Position numbers and translations under genes: made by a program. A DNA stretch of 44,190 nt from Clostridiales bacterium. Its GTDB lineage: Bacteria > Bacillota > Clostridia > Peptostreptococcales > Anaerovoracaceae. The stretch spans positions 1-44,190 of the forward strand of contig SVCQ01000018.1 in assembly GCA_015058275.1 (NCBI GenBank), given 5' to 3'. Under the pieces are notes generated by a model. That model made no database searches. It was not told the origin of the DNA and was given only the letters and a program-made list of their open reading frames with translations. Shown one piece after another: positions 25,843 through 37,456 of the stretch (position 1 is its first letter; every line of letters begins with the position of its first letter).

Positions 25843-26072
25843 GAGCTACCATAGAAGGTAGGCGGTTAGCCCTCCTCTCGGAGGGTCCAATCCCTCCAAT
25901 CGTTTTGAAAGGAGGTGATTGCCATGAGTATATTCGAGTCGATATATCTCGGTCTGACCTTCGGGTTATTCCTGATAACATTGCTTGCATATATAAAGAA
26001 GTAGCCGCCCTTGTCCGGAAGGCGACTACTATGTTGCTATACTAGGGCTAACCGTCTATCGGTAGCTCTTTT
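25843..26072 (+). repeat. inverted end repeats of the toxin transcript
   Basis: GAGCTACC (25843-25850) pairs with GGTAGCTC (26061-26068). GGCGGTTAGCCCT (25861-25873) pairs with AGGGCTAACCGTC (26044-26056) apart from one G-U pair. TTTT follows at 26069. The two ends of a roughly 230-nt RNA could thus fold together and hide the ribosome site, as in known type I toxin mRNAs. Confidence 0.75.
25924..26004 (+). CDS. type I toxin-like small membrane peptide (holin-like/Fst-TxpA class)
   Basis: This 26-residue peptide has a very strong ribosome site (AAAGGAGGTGATT, 3 nt before the ATG). It starts MSIFESIYLG, forms one hydrophobic helix (LTFGLFLITLLAYI) and ends in two lysines. This is the pattern of Fst/TxpA and holin-like toxins, which insert in the inner membrane. 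Long inverted repeats bracket the transcript, and an antisense promoter faces it from the 3' side, as in par/Fst-like type I systems. The shared SOS box suggests induction by DNA damage, as known for TisB in E. coli (a comparison of logic, not of sequence). Toxicity is inferred, not shown. Confidence 0.75.
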   Translation: MSIFESIYLGLTFGLFLITLLAYIKK

Positions 26073-26116: not shown

Positions 26117-27265
26117 TTACTGGTAGGCGAATCCGCCGCCCGCGCTCTGTGCAGGCTCAAATATCGACTTCGCCTGATCGTCAGTCAGCTCGATACCGAA
26201 GACTTCCTTATAGTAGTCCTTGGCCTCCTGTATGACATCGATGTCCTGGAACTGTTCCGGATATGCTGTCTTGGCCATCCACAGCAGTGTCACCGGACAG
26301 TCGACTCCCGGAGTGTAGCTCCTGTACATGCCGAGCGGCATCTTGTAGCAGTTCTTGTTCTGCACAGCCGCTACCGGGCTCCAGTCATATCCCTCTACCG
26401 TGTTGTTGTACAGGTCCTCAGGATAGTATTCGTTGAAGTTCGTGATGAAGATCAGATCCGGATTCCAGTCGTAGACCTGCTCCATGTTGACAGGCACCGA
26501 ATTGTCCTGCGTGAGTTCCTTGGCTACGTTCTTTGCTCCGATAGCATCAGCCCACCACTGTCCGAAGAAGTGCTCTCCTGATGTGAGCAGCGTCGTGTCG
26601 TTGTACTGGAAGAGGAAGAACGCATTGGCTCTCTGGTCGTCAGAGATATTCTTTACTCTCTCCTGTACAAGATCGTACATCTCTCTGGACTTCTGCTCGA
26701 CGATCGCAGACTTGTCGCTGTCCGGGAACATCTGGCTCAGCAGCGCGATCCAGTTATTGAGTGTCTCGATGCAGTCGTAATCCCACTTGTTGACCGAGAT
26801 CGCAACTGCGGCAAAGCCGGCCTCTGTCAGCTGCTCGCCGAGTTCAGGACTCGATGCACTGTAGAATACGACGTCAGGCTCGAGCTTCGCAAGCTCCTCC
26901 ATGTTGACGTTCGCGCCGTCAATGTAGCCTGTCTCAGCCTTGAGGATCTCAGGATAGAGCTCGCCCAGCAGACCATTCTGCGCAGCCGTCATGCTCGGTG
27001 CAGGCATGCCCACGATCTTGTCGGCCGAATTGAAGAACACAGCCAGCACGCTCGGCAGCGGGAAGATATCGCATACAGCGATCCTCTGGATGTCCTTAGG
27101 CACTTCGACTTCCTTGTCCGCGTGATCTACTACCGTGATCGTATCGCCGCCCGAGCTGCTCTCATCGCTCCCGCCTCCGCAGGATGCGAGCGGCATCACA
27201 GACATCGCGAGCACCATCATCAGCACGATGAGTCTCAGCATCTTCTTACTCAGAAATGACTTCAT
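26117..27265 (-). CDS. metal-chelate ABC transporter substrate-binding lipoprotein (FepB/TroA-like)
   Basis: This 382-residue lipoprotein has a signal peptide ending in the lipobox LASC (Cys29), a Ser/Gly linker and a periplasmic-binding fold of the iron-siderophore/cobalamin class. It has the DHADKEVEVPKDIQRIAV start, LAKLEPDVVF in the middle and YDWNPDLIFI later. It should deliver a metal chelate, corrinoid or related cofactor to the FecCD/ATPase genes at 31959-33790. Those genes lie upstream in the same operon, separated from it by the four enzyme genes. It is the last gene of the operon. An AGGAGG ribosome site lies 10 nt upstream of the ATG. The ligand is unknown. Confidence 0.88.
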   Translation of the reverse strand: MKSFLSKKMLRLIVLMMVLAMSVMPLASCGGGSDESSSGGDTITVVDHADKEVEVPKDIQRIAVCDIFPLPSVLAVFFNSADKIVGMPAPSMTAAQNGLLGELYPEILKAETGYIDGANVNMEELAKLEPDVVFYSASSPELGEQLTEAGFAAVAISVNKWDYDCIETLNNWIALLSQMFPDSDKSAIVEQKSREMYDLVQERVKNISDDQRANAFFLFQYNDTTLLTSGEHFFGQWWADAIGAKNVAKELTQDNSVPVNMEQVYDWNPDLIFITNFNEYYPEDLYNNTVEGYDWSPVAAVQNKNCYKMPLGMYRSYTPGVDCPVTLLWMAKTAYPEQFQDIDVIQEAKDYYKEVFGIELTDDQAKSIFEPAQSAGGGFAYQ

Positions 27266-27279
27266 AATCAGAAACCTCC

Positions 27280-28548
27280 TTAAAATTGTTTAAATATCGC
27301 ATCCGGGTCCTTGATCAGATCCGGTATGTCGCTTCTGTAAATACGCCCCGAGAACGCCTCGTGAGGCAGGGCTATGAACTTCGCGCCCTCCGGGACTATC
27401 GGCCTGTAGAGCGGATCGGCTATGACGAAGTCCGCGCCTTCGAGTTCAGGTATTATGTCATCCTCATCAGGCGTCAGCCTGTCGCATTCTCTCAGTATGT
27501 CTTCCGGGCACTCGGTCGCGCACAGCACCCTGGCCGGGATGCCGCACTCGAGTTCAATGGAACTTGCAAGGGAAAGTGATGTAACGCCCTCTCCGATCAC
27601 TGCGGCGAAGCCTTTATCGTATGAGCGTCCGTCTTCGCTCTGCCGGCCGCCCAGGAAGACTCCCGACTCCACGCTTATCTCCGAGTGGCTCAGGGGACAG
27701 GTCCCTGTGCCATTTGGCCCGGGGACCTGTCCCCTGAGCCACAGTATCATCTGGTCTGCCAATAAGCCCGGCAGCTCATTCCCTACAGGTACTCCGACCG
27801 CATACGGCATGCCGAATCTCTCGTGCAGCACCCTCGCAGCTCCGAGTCCCGAAGCGGATACCACCAGATTGATGTCGGCTTCCCCCGCGCGCCTTATCTC
27901 GTCAAGATCCGATCCCATCGCCCACTTCGACACTACCTCGAAGCCCTCGCTTTCGAGCCACTCGGCGATCGAGCGGTCCTGGCCGTTGATCGAGAAGTCG
28001 AGCGGCGTGAGACCCAGGATGTTGACCTTTATCTTCTCACTGTGATCCTTCGCTTCGCTCAGGATGACACCTTCCGTCATTTCGGTCACTCTTGGCGTCG
28101 GCTTGTCAACAAATCTCCTTGCGATGCCCGCAAGCGCCATCGAAGCTCCGTGGATGTATGTATTCATCCCCGTGGTCGCAAAGCCGAAGCTAGGTATGCC
28201 CGTCCTCTGCTCGATGACCTCTGCCACCGCCTCGAAGTCAAAGCCCGTCATGGCCGGGATAGGAGTGCCCGCGATCGCGATGAATGCAGGCTCGAGCTCC
28301 TCCGCCGCAAGGCAGATGTCCTCTATCAGCTTCTCGTCGTCGCCCATGATGGCCTCCATCTCCGAGAGACCTGAGATATATACCATGCTGTCCATGTCGT
28401 ACCAGCGCGGTTCATCATGGGTCGTATATGTCGAATTGCATCCGGACGCGTCGTGCATGACCGTCATGCCGCCAAGCTCAAAGAGAGCCGAGCACACGCC
28501 CATCACGTCCGCCGAATATGTGGATATTACACTTGCTGTCTGTTTCAT
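27280..28548 (-). CDS. nitrogenase component 1-like subunit B, with two in-frame repeat insertions
   Basis: This 422-residue protein belongs to the NifD/NifK/BchN-type oxidoreductase family. GVCSALFELGGM (Cys19) and HDASGCNSTYTTHDEP (Cys37) align with the first two P-cluster cysteine segments. The third, normally a Cys-Pro type motif, reads AGTPIPAMTGFD, so one ligand is lost here. Residues about 156-171 (VILSEAKDHSE) and about 270-289 (RGQVPGPNGTGT) are encoded by two different palindromic repeat elements and look like insertions at loops. NILGLTPLDF at 177-186 resembles the start of the family's second Rossmann-like domain. The gene sits 14 bp after subunit A. Together they probably form the catalytic partner of the NifH-like reductase; the substrate is unknown. 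Confidence 0.82.
   Translation of the reverse strand: MKQTASVISTYSADVMGVCSALFELGGMTVMHDASGCNSTYTTHDEPRWYDMDSMVYISGLSEMEAIMGDDEKLIEDICLAAEELEPAFIAIAGTPIPAMTGFDFEAVAEVIEQRTGIPSFGFATTGMNTYIHGASMALAGIARRFVDKPTPRVTEMTEGVILSEAKDHSEKIKVNILGLTPLDFSINGQDRSIAEWLESEGFEVVSKWAMGSDLDEIRRAGEADINLVVSASGLGAARVLHERFGMPYAVGVPVGNELPGLLADQMILWLRGQVPGPNGTGTCPLSHSEISVESGVFLGGRQSEDGRSYDKGFAAVIGEGVTSLSLASSIELECGIPARVLCATECPEDILRECDRLTPDEDDIIPELEGADFVIADPLYRPIVPEGAKFIALPHEAFSGRIYRSDIPDLIKDPDAIFKQF
27685..27742. repeat. palindromic element inside the nitrogenase-like subunit B gene
   Basis: Arms at 27685-27705 and 27722-27742 are perfect 21-bp reverse complements containing GGGGACAGGTCCC, with a 16-nt loop. The reading frame passes straight through. 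The core is the same as in the element within the ABC gene at 10716-10849. Confidence 0.85.
28043..28069. repeat. fragment of a second repeat family inside subunit B
   Basis: On the minus strand the sequence reads TGTCATCCTGAGCGAAGCG followed by AAGGATCA, read in frame as VILSEAKDH. The same TGTCATCCTGAGCGAAGC end opens the intergenic element at 35043-35186. Confidence 0.75.
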
Positions 28549-28562
28549 AGTCCTGTCCGGTC

Positions 28563-29936
28563 CTATCTGTTGCAGACCTCGCAGCCCAGGCCCTTGACCT
28601 GCACGAGCTCCTTCATTTCCTTACTGTTAAGATACGCATCGCGCATCAGCTCCATCGTCCGCATCACCGCTTCGTATCCGATCATGCCGCCGCCCTCGAC
28701 GATATTGACGAAGTGATCAGTGCCGTCGAAGTACGCAGCCTTTTGGCCGAGCGCGAGAGTGTTCACGCCGCACGCGCCCTCATCCTCAGAGGTCATCGCC
28801 GAGTTCGCAAAGCGCATTCCCGCGTGGACCGTCGGATACAGCATCAGATCCGGATATTTCTCCCTGAGATAGTCGAATGCAGCCCTGTCGCCGCCCGGTA
28901 TACCGTCGACGTAAACGCGCTCGACCCTGAAGCCGTGATCGAGCAGCAGCCTCGCCAGTCCAAGCGGTCTAGGGCAGTAGGTGTAGTCGATGCTGATTGG
29001 AGTATCTCCCACGACTTCTCTGGTCTTTTCTATCTCCTCCTCGCAGGCCTTCCTGAGTCCTGCGATCTCATCTGCGCTTCTTGCATCTATACCGAGGACC
29101 CTGGCCAGATCAGCAAAGGTCTCATCTGTCTCATCATAATCGAAGCTGAACTTCAGCGGGAAGTGCGTACCGCCGAGCCTGCCGGCCAGCATGTCGCCTC
29201 CCGGCGCCGCATCCGGATTGTACGAGATGTATACGCTGCTTTCGGCCATCTCCTGGTACTCCTCATAGTTCCTGCATGAGGTGATCTCGTGGACCTTTAG
29301 TCCGGCGCCCTTCAGCAGCTTCATAAGGTCGCTGCCCTCATCCGTCGGAAGGTCATTGCCGATGATAGCCACAGCTCTTGGGTCCTTGTCGCGCTCATGG
29401 AGCAGCATGTACAGCCTCGATCTCATAAGCTGATCAGGCGTAAGGCCGCTCTTCCTCATGACAGGATTCATGTAGCAGTCTGTGAAGTCTATGTCCGGGA
29501 AGCGCTCCCTGAGAGTGCGGTATATCATATCAAGGTCGACGCCCGCGAAATGATGCACGCAGCTTGTGTACACCAGTACTGCAGGCGGCCTCTTCGGCAG
29601 CTTGCCGATGATGTCCGAGACGCCTTCGATCACGAGATCCTCCATGTCGCCGTCGAGCAGGTTGTTCTCCCTGACAGCGACGGTCGAGAACCTGTTCTGG
29701 GCGCCCATCTCAGCGGCGGTCAGCACGACCCCGCGCAGGCAGCCCGCGGCGCACACGAATATCTCGTGTGCCTCCGGGATGAGCATCCCGGTGTGGACTA
29801 TATTCCACGTGCCGCGGGCCGGAGATGAGTACTCCAGACCCGATTTGAAAGGCGCCGGGAAGTTCGCATCCGCGATCCTCACATGAGGCAGATCAGCCGC
29901 CGTTATTCTCTTCTGCTTTTCATTTACTTTCTTCAT
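28563..29936 (-). CDS. nitrogenase component 1-like subunit A
   Basis: This 457-residue member of the nitrogenase component 1 family is more divergent than its partner. Candidate cluster ligands are Cys62 and Cys66 (FVCAAGCLRGV) and Cys126 (YTSCVHHFAGVD). The latter sits where NifD/NifK carry their third P-cluster cysteine. The C-terminus ends with GLGCEVCNR, a CxxC not expected in NifD or NifK. It follows the NifH-like gene by 39 bp and precedes subunit B by 14 bp. With both it resembles a two-component reductase such as nitrogenase, protochlorophyllide reductase, CfbCD or methylthioalkane reductase. It cannot be placed in one of these groups by eye. No nifE, nifN or nifB lies nearby. Confidence 0.8.
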   Translation of the reverse strand: MKKVNEKQKRITAADLPHVRIADANFPAPFKSGLEYSSPARGTWNIVHTGMLIPEAHEIFVCAAGCLRGVVLTAAEMGAQNRFSTVAVRENNLLDGDMEDLVIEGVSDIIGKLPKRPPAVLVYTSCVHHFAGVDLDMIYRTLRERFPDIDFTDCYMNPVMRKSGLTPDQLMRSRLYMLLHERDKDPRAVAIIGNDLPTDEGSDLMKLLKGAGLKVHEITSCRNYEEYQEMAESSVYISYNPDAAPGGDMLAGRLGGTHFPLKFSFDYDETDETFADLARVLGIDARSADEIAGLRKACEEEIEKTREVVGDTPISIDYTYCPRPLGLARLLLDHGFRVERVYVDGIPGGDRAAFDYLREKYPDLMLYPTVHAGMRFANSAMTSEDEGACGVNTLALGQKAAYFDGTDHFVNIVEGGGMIGYEAVMRTMELMRDAYLNSKEMKELVQVKGLGCEVCNR

Positions 29937-29975
29937 TTCTTATGTATGTCCCACTCCGCATGATGCGGAGATCAT

Positions 29976-30740
29976 TTACTTCTCTTCGACCCCGCATACC
30001 TCAAGAAGCTTCTTTGCGAGAGTGCGGTATTCCCCGGCCATATCGCTGTCCGGGAAGGCCTCGATGACAGTGATGCCGAGGTCCTCTGCATCGGTCACGA
30101 CCTCACTCCTTGAGAGCTCTCCGATCACCTCAGAGCCGATGTCCTGTGCAAGCTCAGCCACCTTGGCATCCTCGTCCTTCACATCCCTGTGATTGAGTAT
30201 GATACCGCCCAGGCTCGCATAGCCCCTGTCCTTGAATCCATCGATGGCAACGGCGATGTTTGCAGCCGCGTGGATCGCCATGTTCTCTCCTGAAGTGATC
30301 ACAAAGACCTTGTCCGCATAGCCGCCCCTCATCGGCATCGAAAAGCCTCCGCATACAACATCACCGAGCACGTCGTAGATAACGACATCCGGTTTGTACT
30401 TCTCGTATGCGCCCTTCTCCTTGAGCTTCTCAAGAGCAGCGATTATGCCGCGCCCCGCACATCCAAGGCCAGGAGTCGGTCCGCCGGCCTCGACGCAGAT
30501 GACCCCGCCGTAGCCTTCCTTTACCATCTCCTCGAGAGTGAAGTCATTCTTCCTCTCCCTGACAAGATCGAGCACGGTCGTCATGTCATCCTGCTTGTGC
30601 AGGCTCGACGTCGAATCCGCCTTCGGATCGCAGCCGATCTGCATCACCTTGTATCCCATATCTGCGAGGGCCGCCGACACATTCGACACAGTAGTAGACT
30701 TGCCGATCCCGCCCTTTCCGTATACCGCGATCTTTATCAT
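29976..30740 (-). CDS. NifH-like iron-protein reductase
   Basis: This 254-residue ATPase delivers electrons in nitrogenase-type systems. The P-loop GKGGIGKST is at residues 8-16. CDPKADST is conserved. The two subunit-bridging [4Fe-4S] ligands are present as Cys94 (GLGCAGRG) and Cys130 ([14 protein letters not shown]), so electron transfer should work. I chose ATG 30740 ([10 protein letters not shown]) because GGAAAGGAA precedes it and the family starts here; a longer frame to 30773 is less likely. It is slightly shorter than classical NifH (about 290 residues). It begins 1 bp after the radical SAM gene and feeds the two component 1-like subunits downstream. Confidence 0.93.
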
Positions 30741-30741
30741 T

Positions 30742-31791
30742 TCATTTCCTTTCCTGGAAGTCTCCGCGTGCAACGACGACTTCGTATCCTATCGCTTCCA
30801 TCTGCTCTCTCAAAACGCGTATGCCTGTCTCCGCACTCATGTCTGTCCCGGTCTTGCCGTCGTAGAGCATGTATTTCTTCCTTACTTCCAGCGGCGACAG
30901 ATTCGGCATCACTACATTGCATCCCGCGAGCACGCCCTTCTGCCTGCCCTCCGCCTCGGCCGTACCGAGCGCGGTCGTCGAAGGTATCAGAGCATCCGGG
31001 AGCATTATCCTGCAAAGCGCGATCACCAGCAGAGTGAGATCGACGCTTCCCGCCGGCTCATCTCTGAACGGCGTGTCGTGGTGAGGTATGAACGGTCCGA
31101 GACCTATCATCTCCGGCCTGAAGTCCGTCATGAACATCATGTCCTCCGCGAGATATCTCGAAGTCTGATGCGGCGTTCCTATCATGATGCCGCAGCCCGT
31201 CTGGAAGCCTATCTCCTTGAGATCCCTGAGGCAGCGCATCCTGTTGGCAAGAGTCTGGGTCTTTGGATGAAGCATCGCGTAGTGCTCCGGGTCCGCCGTC
31301 TCATGCCTGAGGAGGTATCTCCTCGCGCCCGCATCATACAGCGCCTGGTAGTACTCCCTGCTCAGCTCTCCTATTGAAACGGTCACCGCGCAGTCCGGAT
31401 ACTCCTCCGAGATCCTTTTCACGATGCCGCACATCTTTTCCTGCGTATAGTACGGATCCTCGCCGCCCTGCAGGACGAAGGTCCTGAAGCCGTGGTCATA
31501 TCCGTCCGCACAGCACTTCAGGATGTCCTCTTCATCGAGCCTGTAGCGCGAGACCTTAGAATTGCTGCACCTTATCCCGCAGTAATAGCAGTCGTTCCTG
31601 CAAATGTTGGTGAATTCCACTATCCCGCGGAAGTATATCTTCCTGCCGAAGCGCTCAAGCGCGATGCAGTTCGCTACCCTGGTTGCATACTGCAGATCAT
31701 AAGCATCCCATGTATCGAAGATCTGTATCCACTCGGCTTCGCTCAGATGCTTTTCCTTATTCAGTTTGTCTATGAGTTCTCTGTTTTTCAT
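30742..31791 (-). CDS. HydE-like radical SAM enzyme
   Basis: This 349-residue radical SAM enzyme resembles HydE, the [FeFe]-hydrogenase cofactor maturase. It has CRNDCYYCG (Cys64, Cys68, Cys71 for the SAM cluster) followed at once by an extra Cys75 where HydE usually has Arg. Then come [21 protein letters not shown] and [14 protein letters not shown], and a C-terminal part of the BATS type. HydE acts on an iron-cysteine synthon. No hydF, hydG or hydrogenase gene is in the window, and the neighbours are nitrogenase-like genes. I infer that it builds or modifies a metal cofactor or thiol ligand for the reductase. It could also be a scavenging radical SAM such as a MqnC/PylB relative, but the motifs fit HydE best. 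Confidence 0.82.
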
Positions 31792-31812
31792 TTCTGAATT
31801 TGTAACCGTCGC

Positions 31813-31958
31813 GGCGCGCAGCTCTTATCCCGCAGTGAGTGTTGCAGCGAATGGGGGATTTGAACGGGAGCGCCTCACATACGTACATCTGACTAGGCGC
31901 GCAGGTCTTGTCTCGCAGTGAGCGTTGCAGCGAGCGAGAGATAAGACCGGGAGCGCCT
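31813..31958. repeat. two 63-bp direct repeats with internal palindromes
   Basis: Copies at 31813-31875 and 31896-31958 both start GGCGCGCAG and end GGGAGCGCCT, with a 20-bp gap. Each can fold (for example GGTCTT...AAGACC in the second). They fill the 167-bp gap between the ATPase and HydE-like genes, and the second copy abuts the ATPase stop codon. Confidence 0.75.
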
Positions 31959-32771
31959 CTAATCGACTATACTGACCGGAACGACGCTCTGTACCGTGCT
32001 GCCCACCGCATCGAAGTCCCCTATGATCGCATTGACACCGAATATGCTGCGGATATCGTCCTCGCTGACTACGAACTTCGTCGGCCCGTATATATTCATG
32101 CCGCCCTTCGTGAGCAGCAGCGACCTGTCTGCCCTCTGAAGAGCATGGGCCGGATAGTGCGTGTTGAATACGCAAGCCACGCCTTCCTCCGCAAGAGACG
32201 TCATCGCATCGAGTACTACCAGCTGATTGCGGAAGTCGAGGTTCGACTCCGGCTCGTCGAGTACAAGGAGCTCCGGCTCTGCAGCCATCGCTCTTGCGAT
32301 CAACACCATCTGAAGCTCTCCGCCGCTTATCGCATGGCATGGCTTGTCCGCGAGCTCCCATATGCCGAGCCTCTTCATCACGCGCTCAGCGACCTCCATG
32401 TCTTCATCCTTAGGCGAGCTGAAGGCGCCGATGCGAGCACTTCGACCGAGCAGCACAGTCTGGAAGGCCGTGTATGATGTAGCAGCGGACCTCGCCTGCG
32501 GCACGTATGCCATCCTGCGCCAGAGAGTATTCGCCGGCATGGTCCTTATGTCCTCTCCGTCAAGCAGGCTCCTTCCCGTCTCCCAGTGCAGCATGTCCAT
32601 CATGCAGCGAAGGAGAGTCGTCTTGCCTGCCCCGTTAGGCCCGAGCACCGCAAGTATCTCGCCCGCCCTGACCTCGACGTTTATGTCCTTTAATATCTGC
32701 GGTCCGCCTTTATAAGCGAAGCTGCCGTTCTCTATCCTGAGGATAGCCGCGCTCCTGTCTTTTGCCGTCAT
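31959..32771 (-). CDS. ABC transporter ATP-binding protein of the metal-chelate importer
   Basis: This 270-residue FecE/BtuD-type ATPase has Walker A LGPNGAGKTT, signature ISGGELQMV and Walker B LLVLDEPESNLD. It powers uptake through the FecCD permease. ATG 32771 is used because it overlaps the permease stop by 4 nt (ATGA) and fits the family. A longer frame to 33008 would run deep into the permease gene. The C-terminus has about 50 residues beyond the core, ending in VVPVSIVD. Confidence 0.92.
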   Translation of the reverse strand: MTAKDRSAAILRIENGSFAYKGGPQILKDINVEVRAGEILAVLGPNGAGKTTLLRCMMDMLHWETGRSLLDGEDIRTMPANTLWRRMAYVPQARSAATSYTAFQTVLLGRSARIGAFSSPKDEDMEVAERVMKRLGIWELADKPCHAISGGELQMVLIARAMAAEPELLVLDEPESNLDFRNQLVVLDAMTSLAEEGVACVFNTHYPAHALQRADRSLLLTKGGMNIYGPTKFVVSEDDIRSIFGVNAIIGDFDAVGSTVQSVVPVSIVD

Positions 32772-33790
32772 ATGCGCCACCCTCCGCTTCTTCTCATCAG
32801 GTATATGAATACAGGCGCGCCGATGATGGCCGTGAGTATCGAGACAGGTATCTCGGCAGCCGATATGCTGCGCGCCATTGTGTCTACTATTATCATGAAT
32901 ACCGCCCCGAGGCTGACCGAAGCCGGCACTATCGCGAGGTGGTTGTTGCCGAAGAGCATGCGGCACATGTGAGGTATGAGAAGTCCTACCCATCCGACCT
33001 GTCCGCACATCGAAACGCAGGACGCGGTGATCGCAGTCGCCGCGACGACCGTCACTCCGCGCAGAAGCCGTATATCCACGCCCGAAGCCTTCGCCTCATC
33101 ATCTGAAAGCGGCAGCAGGTTCATTCTCCATCTTATGAGCATGAAGAGCAGCACGCCCGCAATGATGACAGGCGCCCCAAGAGCAAGCGTCTTGTAGTTG
33201 GCCTTGTCGAGTCCGCCCATCAGCCAGTAGGTGATCGCCGGCAGCTGGGACTCCTCGTCAGCCACGTACTTTACAAGCGATACCAGCGCCGAGAACAGCG
33301 ATCCCATCATTATGCCCGAAAGGACTATGTAGCTGAGGCCGCCTCTGTCCCTGCCTGAGCCCGCAAGCCAGGTGAGGGTGACAGCGACTCCGCCCATCAC
33401 AAGGGCGGAGATCTGTATACCTATGAGGTCGAAGCCCAGCAGTATACCGAGGGCCGCACCGAAGCTCGCGCCGCTTGCGACTCCGAGAGTGTCCGGCGTG
33501 GCGAGCGGGTTGGCAAAGAGGCTCTGGAACGCGCAGCCCGAGACCGAAAGCCCCGCACCGACGAGTATCGCCAGCAGTATGCGCGGCAGCCTTAAATTCA
33601 TGACCGTCTTTTCGACCAGCATGCTTCCCGCATGCCCGCCCGAGAGCCTCGCAGCGAGCACGTCAAGAACTTCGCCCGAGGATATGGACATGCGTCCTAT
33701 CCCGAGAGCGATCGTCGCTGCTATGAAAGGCAGCACTATCAGTATTAACTTCCATCCAAGCGGCAGCCTGCCGTCACGTCCTGACTTCAT
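32768..33790 (-). CDS. FecCD-family ABC permease
   Basis: This permease of about 340 residues has nine to ten membrane helices and FecCD motifs, such as RLPRILLAILVGAGLSVSGCAFQ, then NPLATPDTLGVASGA and GFVGLLIPH-type WVGLLIPHMCRML. It forms the channel for siderophore, cobalamin or other metal-chelate uptake with the ATPase and lipoprotein of this operon. I prefer ATG 33790 (MKSGRDGRL) because GGGACCGGG lies just upstream. The frame extends to 33844 without a ribosome site. Confidence 0.92.
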   Translation of the reverse strand: MKSGRDGRLPLGWKLILIVLPFIAATIALGIGRMSISSGEVLDVLAARLSGGHAGSMLVEKTVMNLRLPRILLAILVGAGLSVSGCAFQSLFANPLATPDTLGVASGASFGAALGILLGFDLIGIQISALVMGGVAVTLTWLAGSGRDRGGLSYIVLSGIMMGSLFSALVSLVKYVADEESQLPAITYWLMGGLDKANYKTLALGAPVIIAGVLLFMLIRWRMNLLPLSDDEAKASGVDIRLLRGVTVVAATAITASCVSMCGQVGWVGLLIPHMCRMLFGNNHLAIVPASVSLGAVFMIIVDTMARSISAAEIPVSILTAIIGAPVFIYLMRRSGGWRI

Positions 33791-33844
33791 CCCGGTCCCT
33801 GTTACTAAAAAGGCCCTGCTCCTCTCCTGAGAAGCAAGGCTCAT

Positions 33845-33947
33845 AAGTTACTGATACAAACGATCCCGCCCTTTGGCGGCATGTCGCCTGTTCATCTTGC
33901 TTCAGCCTCAAGCCCGCGCTGCGGGATTTCGGCATCAGGGGATGTTG
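33845..33947 (-). other. hairpin-rich leader between the TM1266-like and permease genes
   Basis: ATCCCGC (33863-33869) pairs with GCGGGAT (33921-33927). Each arm can also form its own small hairpin (CCGCC/GGCGG and CCCGC/GCGGG). Such mutually exclusive folds could control the permease gene, or be a repeat remnant. I recognise no known riboswitch. Confidence 0.35.
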
Positions 33948-34193
33948 TCAGACTTTGGCGTAGGTCACCTTGGCATTGATACCGTCAATGCGTCCGAGCG
34001 CTCCGCTCAGCGAATTGATCGCGTCCATCGGTGCGTCGATGGCGATGCTGATGATGTTGAGGTTCTTCTCTCTGTACGGCACCCCCATCCTCCCGAGGAT
34101 GTACGGCGAGTACTGATGAAGAAGCTCATTCAGCTCTTCCACCCGGCCCGGATCCGTGACGATGATGCTAATCACGGCGACTCTGGTTTCCAT
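33948..34193 (-). CDS. TM1266-like small protein (putative iron-hydrogenase system regulator family)
   Basis: This 81-residue protein starts METRVAVISIIV and ends GINAKVTYAKV. This is the ferredoxin-like, NikR C-terminal-type fold of TM1266 proteins, which are typically encoded beside HydE/HydF/HydG. It has no DNA-binding part. The family is thought to be regulatory, but its role is not established. It is the first gene after the operon's promoter (AGGAGACA ribosome site) and leads the transporter, radical SAM and nitrogenase-like genes. It may sense the metal or cofactor handled by them. Confidence 0.8.
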   Translation of the reverse strand: METRVAVISIIVTDPGRVEELNELLHQYSPYILGRMGVPYREKNLNIISIAIDAPMDAINSLSGALGRIDGINAKVTYAKV

Positions 34194-34315: not shown

Positions 34316-35008
34316 CTAGAATTCATCCGGCGAGAACTCGAGCAGGCAGTCATAGGCCTCCTGTCCGAAGAGCCCGATGTAGTCCGCGACGGCTCTGTCG
34401 ATGATCTCCTTGGACTCGTCCGGGAATGCCTTGCATATCTCGTCTGCGACCGAGCAGTAGATGTGCGCCGTGTGGAAGCTGAAGTCCTTCATCGCGGAAG
34501 TCCCGAGCTCGGACTTCTTGGCTGCGACCATCTCGAGCTCGCGCTCCGACAGAGGCTTGCCCCAGTCGAATTCGCAGCGGCTTCCTCCCCAGCTCATGGC
34601 AGTCGATATCGGGGTGCATACAGCCCCGCAGCCGAAGCCGTCATAGACAGCCGCGTCAACATGTACGCAGTACTCGCGGCCGTAGTCGAGTATATCGTGT
34701 GTCTTCCAGGCCTCGCACCACGCGCACTTTGAGATGTAAGTCTGGTAGGTCGGCTCAGACCTCAGCATGCCGAATTCCATCTGCCCCGGATAGTCCGGCT
34801 TCCACTCACCGTAGGCCTGATTGGTCCACAGCTCAACAGGGTCGCCATTGGCCCGGGCGCGCGCGGCCATCCTGGCTCCGCGTTCACGTCCGTAGCGCAC
34901 CATGCCGGTCTGTATTGCTTTGCGGCCCTCCTCGCCCTTGGCCTCTATGGCCGCGCGGCTCAGGAAGGCAAACATCATAGCCTGGTTTTCGATCTTCAGT
35001 TCCGCCAT
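34316..35008 (-). CDS. L-2-amino-thiazoline-4-carboxylic acid hydrolase-like protein
   Basis: This 230-residue protein resembles the ATC-hydrolase family. The founding member opens the thiazoline ring of L-ATC on the way to cysteine; many relatives have no known substrate. The core KCAWCEAW...YGREYCVHVDAAVYDGFGCGAVC is rich in cysteine, and more Cys occur near the C-terminus. A metal- or thiol-related role is therefore possible. It has its own GGAGGT ribosome site and lies upstream of the nitrogenase-like operon's promoter, so it may be read-through linked rather than strictly co-transcribed. Its presence hints at sulfur chemistry in this neighbourhood. Confidence 0.75.
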   Translation of the reverse strand: MAELKIENQAMMFAFLSRAAIEAKGEEGRKAIQTGMVRYGRERGARMAARARANGDPVELWTNQAYGEWKPDYPGQMEFGMLRSEPTYQTYISKCAWCEAWKTHDILDYGREYCVHVDAAVYDGFGCGAVCTPISTAMSWGGSRCEFDWGKPLSERELEMVAAKKSELGTSAMKDFSFHTAHIYCSVADEICKAFPDESKEIIDRAVADYIGLFGQEAYDCLLEFSPDEF

Positions 35009-36070: not shown

Positions 36071-36739
36071 TTACTTGCCTGACTGCTCGCTTATCCTGTT
36101 GCGAAGCCAGTCAGTCCACTCATCGAATCCCTCGCCCGTCTTTGCGGAGAGGAAGAATATCTCTGCCATCGGATTGAGCTCGTGCACTCTCTGAACGAAG
36201 GCCTCGTCGTCGAACTTAAAGAACTTCCTCGTGTCCGTCTTGTTGACTATGACCGCCTGACATACCGTGAACATCAGCGGGTACTTGAGCGGCTTGTCGT
36301 CTCCCTCAGGAAGCGAGAGTATCTCCACATTGACATTAGCTCCCGTGTCCTGCTCTGCGGTGCACACGAGGTTGCCGACGTTCTCGAGGAAGATGAGATC
36401 GAGCCCCGCCGTGTCGAATTCCTGAAGAGCCGCCATCGTCATCGAAGCGTCCATCGCACACTCTCCGCCGGTATGGATCTGCATCGCGCGTACGCCCGCA
36501 GCCTCCATCCTCTCGGCATCGACCGTCGCATCTATATCTGCTTCCATCACGCCTACGTTGTACTCATCACCGAGGTCATCGATGGTGCGCAGAAGCGTAG
36601 TCGTCTTGCCGGCGCCCGGCGAAGCCATGATATTTACGAGGAGAGTGCCGTTCTTTTTGTTGAGAGCTCTGACTTCTCCCGCGATGCGGTCGTTCTCCTC
36701 AAAGATCCCTACGTTTACATCTATTACCTTTACTGCCAT
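36071..36739 (-). CDS. hypB: HypB-like nickel GTPase, paralogue 1, with altered metal site
   Basis: This 222-residue HypB-family GTPase has the P-loop ASPGAGKTT (residues 39-47) and NKTD. HypB loads nickel into [NiFe]-hydrogenase with HypA. The usual metal motif Cys-His is changed here: GGECAMDA (Cys94-Ala95) instead of CHLDA. Cys126 (NLVCTAE) is kept but the following Pro is lost. Nickel affinity is therefore probably altered. It follows the second paralogue by 42 bp. No hypA, hypC-F or hydrogenase gene is present in the window. Confidence 0.88.
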   Translation of the reverse strand: MAVKVIDVNVGIFEENDRIAGEVRALNKKNGTLLVNIMASPGAGKTTTLLRTIDDLGDEYNVGVMEADIDATVDAERMEAAGVRAMQIHTGGECAMDASMTMAALQEFDTAGLDLIFLENVGNLVCTAEQDTGANVNVEILSLPEGDDKPLKYPLMFTVCQAVIVNKTDTRKFFKFDDEAFVQRVHELNPMAEIFFLSAKTGEGFDEWTDWLRNRISEQSGK

Positions 36740-36781
36740 ATCTTTGTCACTTTCTTTGGATTTATGTAAATATATTATGTT

Positions 36782-37456
36782 TTACTTTATCTTTGCGTCT
36801 ATCTTAGCGCGCAGCCAGTCCGCGATCTCTCTGACTCCCTCGCCGGTCGCTGCCGAGTACGGGAAGACCGGAGCATCCGGGTTCCTCAGAGCCACGTTGG
36901 CGCGGAACTTATCTAGATCGAAGTCGAAGGCCTCAAGCGCGTCGATCTTGTTGAGGCATACGAGGTCTGCCTTCTCGAACATCAGAGGGTACTTGAGAGG
37001 CTTGTCGTCTCCCTCAGGCACCGAGAGTATGACGAGGTCAAGATCAGCTCCCGTGTCGAACTCGGCCGGGCAGACGAGGTTGCCTACATTCTCGAGTATG
37101 ACAAGGTCGAGGTCCTCAGCCCCTATCTCCCTGAGGGACTGCCTGCTCATGTCCGCATCGAGGTGGCACATACCGCCTGTGTGGAGCTGTACCGAAGCCA
37201 CGCCCGCATCGAGCATCGTCCTTGTATCGACGTCACCGTCTATATCCGCTTCGAGCACGCCTATCCTGTAGTCGCTTCTCAGCTGATCGATCAGATTGAG
37301 GAGGGTCGTGGTCTTGCCGGCGCCCGGCGAAGACATCACGTTGATGTAGTATACACCCATGTCTTTGGTCTCCCCGCGGAGCTTCGCCGCATCAGCGTCG
37401 TTGTCTGCGAGTATGCTCTCCTTGAGATCGATGATCTTTAGTTCGCTTAATTCCAT
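36782..37456 (-). CDS. hypB: HypB nickel GTPase, paralogue 2, canonical metal site
   Basis: This 224-residue HypB has the P-loop SSPGAGKTT (about residues 42-50), GGMCHLDADM with the metal pair Cys97-His98, and NLVCPAEF with Cys129, all canonical. It has no N-terminal His-rich or CxxCGC extension. It should bind nickel or zinc between subunits and release it on GTP hydrolysis. It starts a minus-strand series (hypB2, hypB1, flavoprotein) that leads towards the nitrogenase-like operon. An AAAGGA ribosome site supports the start. Confidence 0.92.
   Translation of the reverse strand: MELSELKIIDLKESILADNDADAAKLRGETKDMGVYYINVMSSPGAGKTTTLLNLIDQLRSDYRIGVLEADIDGDVDTRTMLDAGVASVQLHTGGMCHLDADMSRQSLREIGAEDLDLVILENVGNLVCPAEFDTGADLDLVILSVPEGDDKPLKYPLMFEKADLVCLNKIDALEAFDFDLDKFRANVALRNPDAPVFPYSAATGEGVREIADWLRAKIDAKIK

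Follow-up and report, generated by a model that had tools for sequence, protein, structure and literature searches.

The 44,190-nucleotide contig analysed here (the window), from a Clostridiales bacterium of the family Anaerovoracaceae, carries eight minus-strand open reading frames between positions 26117 and 34193. Reading frames and family scores bear out this gene set (Table 1), as the initial annotation had proposed. From the binding protein to the TM1266-family protein, the intervals between the genes are 14, 14, 39, −2, 167, −7 and 103 bases. The open reading frame list starts NifH1 at a TTG codon (position 30773); we adopted the ATG at position 30743. Upstream of the eight genes, the same strand encodes an ATC-hydrolase-family protein, a thioredoxin-reductase-like protein and two copies of HypB, genes that many close relatives share.

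Table 1. Genes of the locus, with the family model that each matches.
Feature	Position	Strand	Score (cut-off)
Substrate-binding lipoprotein, type II importer	26117..27265	-	Peripla_BP_2 58.9 bits (27.5)
Component-1-like subunit B1	27280..28548	-	Oxidored_nitro 99 bits (28.6)
Component-1-like subunit A1	28563..29936	-	Oxidored_nitro 71.8 bits (28.6)
NifH1, NifH-type ATP-dependent reductase	29976..30743	-	Fer4_NifH 294 bits (25)
HydE, [FeFe]-hydrogenase H-cluster radical SAM maturase	30742..31791	-	TIGR03956 525.6 bits (254.6)
ABC importer ATPase	31959..32774	-	ABC_tran 107.2 bits (25)
FecCD-type importer permease	32768..33844	-	FecCD 270.3 bits (26.5)
TM1266-family protein	33948..34193	-	TIGR03959 108.7 bits (60.8)

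In a survey of 22 loci from close relatives, to which two genomes contribute two loci each, NifH adjoins A1 in 20 (the remaining two contigs start within A1) and a FecCD gene is present in 17, whereas HydE turned up inside the fetched locus in only four. The nitrogenase-like system is conserved in other genomes. The ABC ATPase is fused to a TM1266 domain in two relatives (L142 and L021). A gene in the gap upstream of TM1266 in close relatives was considered as HydF and rejected; it more resembles an MFS-type transporter (44 bits, below the cut-offs).

Like the group IV nitrogenase-like systems CfbCD, Mar and Isr, the locus combines a NifH-type reductase with component-1-like proteins. However, NifH1, A1 and B1 all stay below the curated cut-offs of the named NCBIfam models listed, which upholds the earlier proposal that this nitrogenase-like system, with an importer of its own, is undescribed. 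The NifH model gives NifH1 320.9 bits (cut-off 394.35) and the NifD model gives B1 36.9 bits (cut-off 653.55), with no match of NifD to A1, or of NifK to A1 or B1, among the matches listed. The scores also place the proteins outside CfbCD (NifH1 313.7 bits against a cut-off of 402, B1 22.8 bits against 268.4) and DPOR/COR (best score with the BchLNB or BchXYZ models 194.3 bits, cut-off 345.15). The scanned A1 and B1 proteins, together with A2 and B2 of a second nitrogenase-like set described below (window, L064 and L065), fall below 80 bits and far under the cut-off with every NCBIfam model that they match. Their partners differ too, being hydrogenase maturases. Isr is marked by the radical SAM enzyme IsrB and by neighbouring sulfur-assimilation genes; the radical SAM gene in the window is HydE. 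Against solved chains, NifH1 scores about equally with 9fmg_D, which we take to be MarH (246.7 bits), and with NifH (243.6 bits); the A1 profile gives 19.7 bits with 9fmg_A. There is some likeness to the NifEN scaffold, also a cofactor-building machine, which is the best NCBIfam match for B1 and for A2 and whose NifE is the solved protein closest to the A1 profile, though at only 37.8 bits.

The window A1 and 33 other A1 proteins form one clade with 100/100 support. With a sister family of A1 excluded, A1 Cys66 and Cys126 and B1 Cys37 are present in all 34 aligned proteins and B1 Cys19 in 28 of 34; NifH1 Cys105 and Cys141 (numbered on the 265-residue reading frame) are present in 29 of 29. The pattern of A1 Cys66 and Cys126 with B1 Cys37 suggests that the two subunits share an iron-sulfur cluster. 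Selenocysteine was considered for A1 and rejected: in three genomes (G093, G109 and G124) a TGA codon lies in frame close to the C terminus, but by eye it reads as an ordinary stop overlapping the B1 start (ATGA). A natural A1–B1 fusion was discarded as a template for a model of the complex, as the mixed alignment appeared to set B1 rows on the A1 half.

The radical SAM gene clears the cut-off of a curated model and is thus HydE, a stronger assignment than the HydE-like enzyme first described. The initial annotation also noted that hydF and hydG are missing, which is true of the window; genome-wide, hydG is likewise not found but hydF is present (C19:123352-124554, 549 bits, cut-off 325.55). 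In this genome, which is 82.8% complete, the HydG model (cut-off 312) only cross-matches HydE, at 59 bits. The genome encodes [FeFe]-hydrogenases of group A6, at 883.6 bits against a cut-off of 765, and of group B1, at 570.2 bits against 450. The group A6 protein has all three H-cluster motifs, the group B1 protein shows two of them with the patterns applied, and a third protein has none; across the hydrogenase loci inspected, 27 of 32 have all three. Neither HypD nor the [NiFe]-hydrogenase large subunit has a match in the window genome.

Presence of A1 and presence of HydG are mutually exclusive across the family. Among 129 family genomes, A1 occurs in 17 and HydG in 45, with no genome having both. 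The 63 genomes with HydE divide into 16 with the system, 46 with HydG (including two contig-end fragments) and one with neither, and the 63 with HydF into 15, 45 and three, again with no overlap. G064 (89% complete) and G091 (83%) have HydF without HydG or the system; G063 has a HydF match below the cut-off only. In 391 genomes of the class, counting HydG matches at E ≤ 1e-75 only, HydG occurs in none of 16 strong carriers of A1 and in 240 of 375 other genomes, and the split also holds within genera g150 and g233. HydG above the cut-off is accordingly found in none of 31 carriers (17 from the family and 16 strong ones from the class, two genomes being shared). The genomes are related, so p-values exaggerate the independence of this exclusion. 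Genome-wide checks of the family-level carriers identified [FeFe]-hydrogenase (PF02906) in 17 of 17, HydE in 16 and HydF in 15. NifH1–A1–B1 thus occurs where HydG is missing, in genomes that, judging by the family-level carriers, retain HydE, HydF and [FeFe]-hydrogenase.

Many carriers are drafts and the window genome is incomplete, and HydG might have been lost from incomplete or mixed metagenome assemblies. This is barely credible given that none of the 31 carriers in the family and class searches has HydG, that completeness reaches 90% or more in 12 of the 17 family carriers, all 12 having PF02906, HydE and HydF, and that no HydG above the cut-off is seen in G060 (3 contigs, 99% complete) or G246 (1 contig, 99%). 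A divergent HydG or ThiH doing the work of HydG was also considered and rejected: six of the 17 family carriers have a 180–203-bit match to the HydG model, the size of the second hit in HydG genomes, and these proteins are probably ThiH. Ten other family carriers have only a weak, HydE-sized match and G109 has none.

Four of all 21 class-level A1 matches are in genomes with HydG. Three of these (G198, G273 and G304) belong to the A1 sister family and have the same importer type, and the fourth (G392) is a still weaker match; G266 has the sister family and lacks HydG. The sister-family and G392 matches fall outside the 100/100 A1 clade. An importer with a nitrogenase-like set therefore does not in itself imply HydG loss. 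The sister-family genes at L152 and L154 have neighbours (FeoB, HD, MCP, transposase, Zn-peptidase, PHP and DUF711) that give no hint of function.

HydE could in principle serve the nitrogenase-like proteins. The initial annotation envisaged a new stand-alone ATP-driven reductase whose cofactor HydE would make or repair, the importer delivering a metal chelate. The failure of NifH1, A1 and B1 to reach the cut-off of any named group fits this idea, and PMC11423573 describes radical SAM genes beside further nitrogenase-like sets, Mar and Isr among them. We nevertheless regard it as improbable. In 18 of 22 close relatives the locus showed no HydE, and the family carriers keep hydrogenase and, nearly always, HydE and HydF while none has HydG. 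Furthermore, the HydE of carriers is interleaved in the tree with that of HydG genomes, with at least six forced switches, and no alignment column separates the two groups (80% in both), although the carrier and HydG labels are still more clustered than when shuffled (10 changes, where shuffling gives 14.8 on average). Because HydF and [FeFe]-hydrogenases are encoded elsewhere in the genome, HydG is missing from all 31 carriers and HydE is not distinct, it is most likely that the reductase and importer feed HydE, and the proposed direction is probably reversed. The first interpretation of the locus is therefore supported in part. On these genomic patterns we put at roughly 80% the probability that NifH1–A1–B1 and its partners form a HydG-free [FeFe]-hydrogenase maturation system that replaces HydG. 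Such a system would keep HydE, HydF, the TM1266-family protein and the hydrogenase of canonical HydE/HydF/HydG maturation, but have a nitrogenase-like set in place of HydG, the source of CO and cyanide.

The system comes in two forms. Of 28 carriers whose surroundings were fetched, 18 have HypFCDE with a second nitrogenase-like set (NifH2–A2–B2), nine, including the window, have the importer, none has both and one has neither. The fetched regions include HydE or HydF in 14 of the 28 and at least one of HydE, HydF and TM1266 in 22. At L145 a single strand encodes TM1266-HydF-HydE-NifH1-A1-B1-NifH2-A2-B2-HypFCDE, and the L070 region includes an [FeFe]-hydrogenase gene. As in [NiFe]-hydrogenase maturation, the Hyp form has HypF, HypC, HypD and HypE with motifs intact: the HypC and HypD catalytic motifs are preserved in 18 of 18 and the HypE C-terminal cysteine in all 14 with that end in view. 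In contrast to that pathway, the genes sit beside a nitrogenase-like set and a [NiFe]-hydrogenase is usually missing. Of the 17 family carriers, 12 have HypD (among the other five, four show importer genes and the fifth, G057, shows neither importer nor HypD), and 11 of these 12 lack a [NiFe]-hydrogenase, compared with one of 27 HypD-containing controls. The large subunit (PF00374) occurs in one of 17 family carriers against 26 of 27 controls, and in that one carrier a further HypD lies some 9 kb away from the PF00374 gene.

The HypCDEF and nitrogenase-like sets might instead serve some other enzyme, with the hydrogenases acquiring CO and cyanide by chance and HydG being dispensable. Work summarised in PMC9431212 reports about 1% hydrogenase activation by HydE and HydF without HydG. 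This explanation is very unlikely in the face of the complementary distribution of the system and HydG in 62 of 63 HydE-containing family genomes, the HydE or HydF genes in half of the fetched regions and the hydrogenase gene within the G093 cluster.

Sequence comparison did not single out a ligand for the binding lipoprotein, whose lipobox Cys29 is present in 12 of 14 aligned proteins. By profile its nearest solved chains are 4ovk (206 bits), HI_1472 (3psa, 110 bits) and 4hn9 (83 bits). HI_1472 is a molybdate/tungstate binder and, as the second nearest chain, is consistent with an importer of a metal or oxyanion (for example, molybdate, tungstate or corrinoid) that supplies a component of the A1–B1 cofactor; A1–B1 would still replace HydG, with no import of an iron-cyanide compound. 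We consider this unlikely, if a good deal less so than the alternatives above, since the importer (nine of 28) alternates with HypCDEF and the second nitrogenase-like set (18 of 28) and never accompanies them in the fetched regions, and cyanide-making enzymes would not be expected to substitute for a metal supply.

For the replacement of HydG by NifH1–A1–B1 we can sketch a pathway, to whose specific chemistry we give somewhat less than even odds. In the Hyp form, HypF and HypE would produce cyanide from carbamoyl phosphate, and HypC and HypD, whose known role is Fe(CN)2CO assembly, would build that unit, which NifH2–A2–B2 would reductively convert to an intermediate X. In the form found in the window, the lipoprotein, FecCD permease and ATPase would take up X or something very similar, for instance an iron-cyanide/carbonyl complex or a different cyanide donor; this class of identity for X is tentative. 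NifH1 with ATP would then drive A1–B1 to turn X into the Fe(CO)2(CN) unit that is the normal product of HydG. HydE would activate and pair these units as usual, HydF would carry the HydE product and the hydrogenases would receive it. The TM1266 protein, which at times forms one chain with the ATPase, may act as a sensor of a product or substrate of the pathway.

To our knowledge, no enzyme other than HydG is known to provide [FeFe]-hydrogenase with its CO and cyanide ligands, and among the open-access papers listed we found no report of HydG being replaced by a nitrogenase-like system. A speculative extension is that bacteria have another way to the H-cluster that does without HydG and leaves the iron-carbonyl-cyanide chemistry to nitrogenase-family enzymes, with some organisms making the precursor themselves (through HypCDEF and a second nitrogenase-like complex) and others possibly importing it ready-made from neighbours as a vitamin-like organometallic. 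If the replacement of HydG is correct, nitrogenase-family proteins would acquire a new role, the assembly of organometallic cofactors, two hydrogenase maturation pathways would be merged and genomes with a hydrogenase but no hydG would be accounted for. It would also make the exchange of a hydrogenase cofactor precursor between microbes testable, and would constitute a new route to the iron-carbonyl-cyanide core of [FeFe]-hydrogenase in a gut-type bacterium.

The eight minus-strand genes of the window operon are present as the initial annotation described them, as confirmed from open reading frames and family profile matches, with intergenic gaps of −7 to 167 bases. HydE and TM1266 exceed their NCBIfam curated cut-offs (525.6 versus 254.6 bits and 108.7 versus 60.8 bits, respectively). 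The reductase NifH1 belongs to the NifH superfamily, and A1 and B1 to the component-1 superfamily. All three fall below the cut-off of every named NCBIfam member matched; the best A1 profile match among solved structures is NifE, at only 37.8 bits. The binding protein's relatives among solved structures (the unnamed protein 4ovk, HI_1472 and 4hn9) would be consistent with an anionic metal complex as ligand, and also with a plain oxyanion.

The operon is flanked by an ATC_hydrolase family gene (75.6 bits) immediately upstream of TM1266. ATC hydrolase is named after a substrate that is a cysteine–cyanide adduct, a possible though uncertain link to a cyanide pathway. Two adjacent HypB genes (226.8 and 227.8 bits; curated HypB cut-off 121.2) lie nearby in a genome with no match to HypD or the [NiFe] large subunit, and the pair is present in many close relatives. 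Judged by eye, a tiny hydrophobic open reading frame between the operon and uvrB, with inverted repeats on its flanks, has the look of a type I toxin or of a holin-like peptide.

Features of the window and of related fetched loci
Feature	Location	Strand	Description
Eight-gene operon	window 26117–34193	−	binding lipoprotein, B1, A1, NifH1, HydE, ATPase, FecCD permease, TM1266
Hydrophobic ORF	window 25924–26004	+	
ATC_hydrolase gene	window 34316–35008		
HypB pair	window 36071–37456	−	
Single one-strand run	L145 (genome G335)		TM1266-HydF-HydE-NifH1-A1-B1-NifH2-A2-B2-HypF-HypC-HypD-HypE
Gene run	L140 (genome G353)		HydE-NifH1-A1-B1-binding protein-permease-ATPase-HydF-TM1266
Gene run	L070 (genome G093)		[FeFe]-hydrogenase gene, then HydE-HydF-TM1266-NifH2-A2-B2-HypFCDE
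Open-frame fusion A1-B1	L065:7300–9828		842 aa
Open-frame fusion NifH1-A1	L145:9709–11805		698 aa
Open-frame fusion ATPase-TM1266	L142, L021		

Passages of a published account describe HydG as cleaving tyrosine to CO and cyanide and handing an Fe(CO)2(CN) unit to HydE, after which HydE and then HydF act (PMC11736057). The window's genome (1.82 Mb, 36 contigs) encodes HydF (549 bits) and has three [FeFe]-hydrogenase large-subunit domain matches: one assigned to group A6 (NADH-dependent; 883.6 bits; curated cut-off 765), one to group B1 (570.2 bits; curated cut-off 450) and a third under the curated cut-offs. HydG was not found in this 82.8% complete genome, where its sole match is the HydE gene (59 bits).

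This pattern recurs across the 129 family genomes, all searched for A1, HydG, HydF and HydE. A1 occurs in 17 and HydG over cut-off in 45, and no genome of the 129 has both. In the splits that follow, two contig-end HydG fragments, in G020 and G100, were scored as HydG. HydE is over cut-off in 63 genomes, of which 16 have the NifH1-A1-B1 system, 46 HydG, none both and one (G064) neither. HydF is found at E ≤ 1e-70 in 63 (61 over cut-off), with the system in 15, HydG in 45, both in none and neither in three: G064, G091 and G063, the last with a HydF match that falls short of the cut-off. Uncorrected for relatedness, this complementarity has Fisher p values of ~5e-14 (HydE) and ~7e-12 (HydF). Every one of the 17 carriers encodes a protein with an [FeFe]-hydrogenase domain, and HydE is present in 16 and HydF in 15; G090 (57% complete) is missing HydF and G109 (82% complete) both. 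Neither HydG nor the system is found in the incomplete genomes G064 (HydE and HydF) and G091 (HydF). Because the G064 HydE nests among carrier HydEs (support 100/97), the system may have been lost in an assembly gap there.

In the class survey of 391 genomes, 21 have A1 matches at E ≤ 1e-40. With the dividing line placed at a gap in the scores, 16 are strong carriers (at least 480 bits) and five weak matches (G198, G266, G273, G304 and G392; 209–355 bits) were set apart. HydG (E ≤ 1e-75) is found in none of the 16, versus 240 of the 375 others (p ~1.5e-7), and in all the weak genomes except G266, giving 4 of the 21. The exclusion is maintained within single genera: g150 has six carriers without HydG and three genomes (G211, G365 and G452) with HydG and no A1 match, and g233 has two carriers without HydG and one genome, G459, with it. 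In gene inventory, the system replaces HydG.

Two strong class carriers are also in the family set, giving 31 distinct carriers, and we examined the surroundings of 28, window included (all but G283, G325 and G416); the five weak class genomes were fetched and excluded from the two-form counts. The system is linked with HydE and HydF: one or the other lies inside the fetched regions of 14 of the 28, and HydE, HydF or TM1266 in 22. The expected co-occurrence of the eight genes held in part, as the system is seen in other genomes but HydE is in the fetched locus of only 4 of 22 close relatives. The hydrogenase gene of L070 scores 475.2 bits against a group A [FeFe]-hydrogenase model (cut-off 405.95). 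The open-frame fusions link parts of the system, though false ones can arise in draft assemblies; if real, A1-B1 and NifH1-A1 would be handy for expression and structure work.

Within the regions examined, the importer alternates with HypCDEF and a second nitrogenase-like set, NifH2-A2-B2. HypF, HypC, HypD and HypE are in the fetched regions of 18 of the 28 carriers, accompanied by B2 in all 18 and A2 in 17, in some genomes on a contig other than that of A1. The binding protein is found in nine, seven of which also have permease and ATPase. No carrier of the 28 has importer and HypFCDE together in its fetched regions, and G057 has neither. A genome-wide search found HypD in 12 of the 17 family carriers but not in G057 or in the four that have importer genes in view (G000, G016, G090 and G099). 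The Hyp proteins retain their motifs: the HypC N-terminal Cys and HypD CGTH are kept in 18 of 18, and HypE ends in PRIC in all 14 proteins with the end in view (five more are cut off). In L065 each of the four is over its curated cut-off. A1 (34 proteins) and A2 (17 proteins) each form one 100/100 clade. The importer form stands at the base of the A1 tree and in its outgroup, which hints that it may be the older, although well-supported branches force only one change. In g150 (loci L148–L151), L148, L150 and L151 have A1-B1 without their own NifH1 in view, and NifH2 may serve both component-1 sets.

The usual client of HypCDEF is [NiFe]-hydrogenase. We searched for its large subunit (PF00374) in the 17 family carriers and 27 of the 52 other HypD-positive family genomes. 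It was found in one carrier (G109, where a second HypD lies ~9 kb from the PF00374 gene) versus 26 of the 27 controls, in which nearly all matches are short, N-terminal and of 39–59 bits, the sole strong one being in G066. Among HypD-positive genomes only, the comparison is 1 of 12 versus 26 of 27 (p ~8e-8).

A HydE tree was built from 45 proteins: 23 labelled carrier (including L017 and L021, contigs of genomes not checked for HydG), 21 from the better-scoring of the 46 HydG-bearing HydE-positive family genomes, and that of G064. Carrier and HydG-genome HydEs are interleaved, with 10 label changes, at least six forced by well-supported branches; the labels are nevertheless more clustered than chance (shuffled mean 14.8 changes). 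No alignment column of this set separates the two groups at 80% in both. This interleaving and lack of a separating column suggest that the HydE substrate is most likely identical in both, and that HydG and the system were most likely swapped repeatedly. Hydrogenase loci were checked for H-cluster patterns in 32 cases: three from the window genome and, from the rest, the best 29, six of which belong to the four non-carrier genomes. All three patterns are present in 27 and two in four, whereas L004, one of the window genome's three, has none.

HypE and HypF generate cyanide, starting from carbamoyl phosphate, and HypCD build Fe(CN)2CO; nitrogenases are able to reduce CO2 to CO and to attack cyanide. 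NifH2-A2-B2 could act on the HypCD product, NifH1-A1-B1 would carry out the final step ahead of HydE, and the importer would supply the intermediate or an equivalent. Four genomes, three of them with HydG, have a sister family of A1 together with an importer of the same type; its loci (L152, L153, L154 and L155) encode NifH, A1-like, B1-like, binding protein, permease and ATPase, and none of HydE, HydF and TM1266 was seen in the fetched 19.5 kb. The ancestral function therefore need not have concerned hydrogenase. This family, the scarcity of HydE in the loci of close relatives, and G057 without importer or HypD count against replacement of HydG.

Also on the opposing side, an acetogen survey notes genomes without an identified hydG and offers other explanations (PMC9431212). 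ProPhylo counts fewer genomes with HydG (179) than with HydE (189) or HydF (200), and the passages concerned give no explanation. A search of the open-access literature found no description of a HydG-free nitrogenase-like system. The component families are already known, and the pathway, going by that search, is of a new kind.
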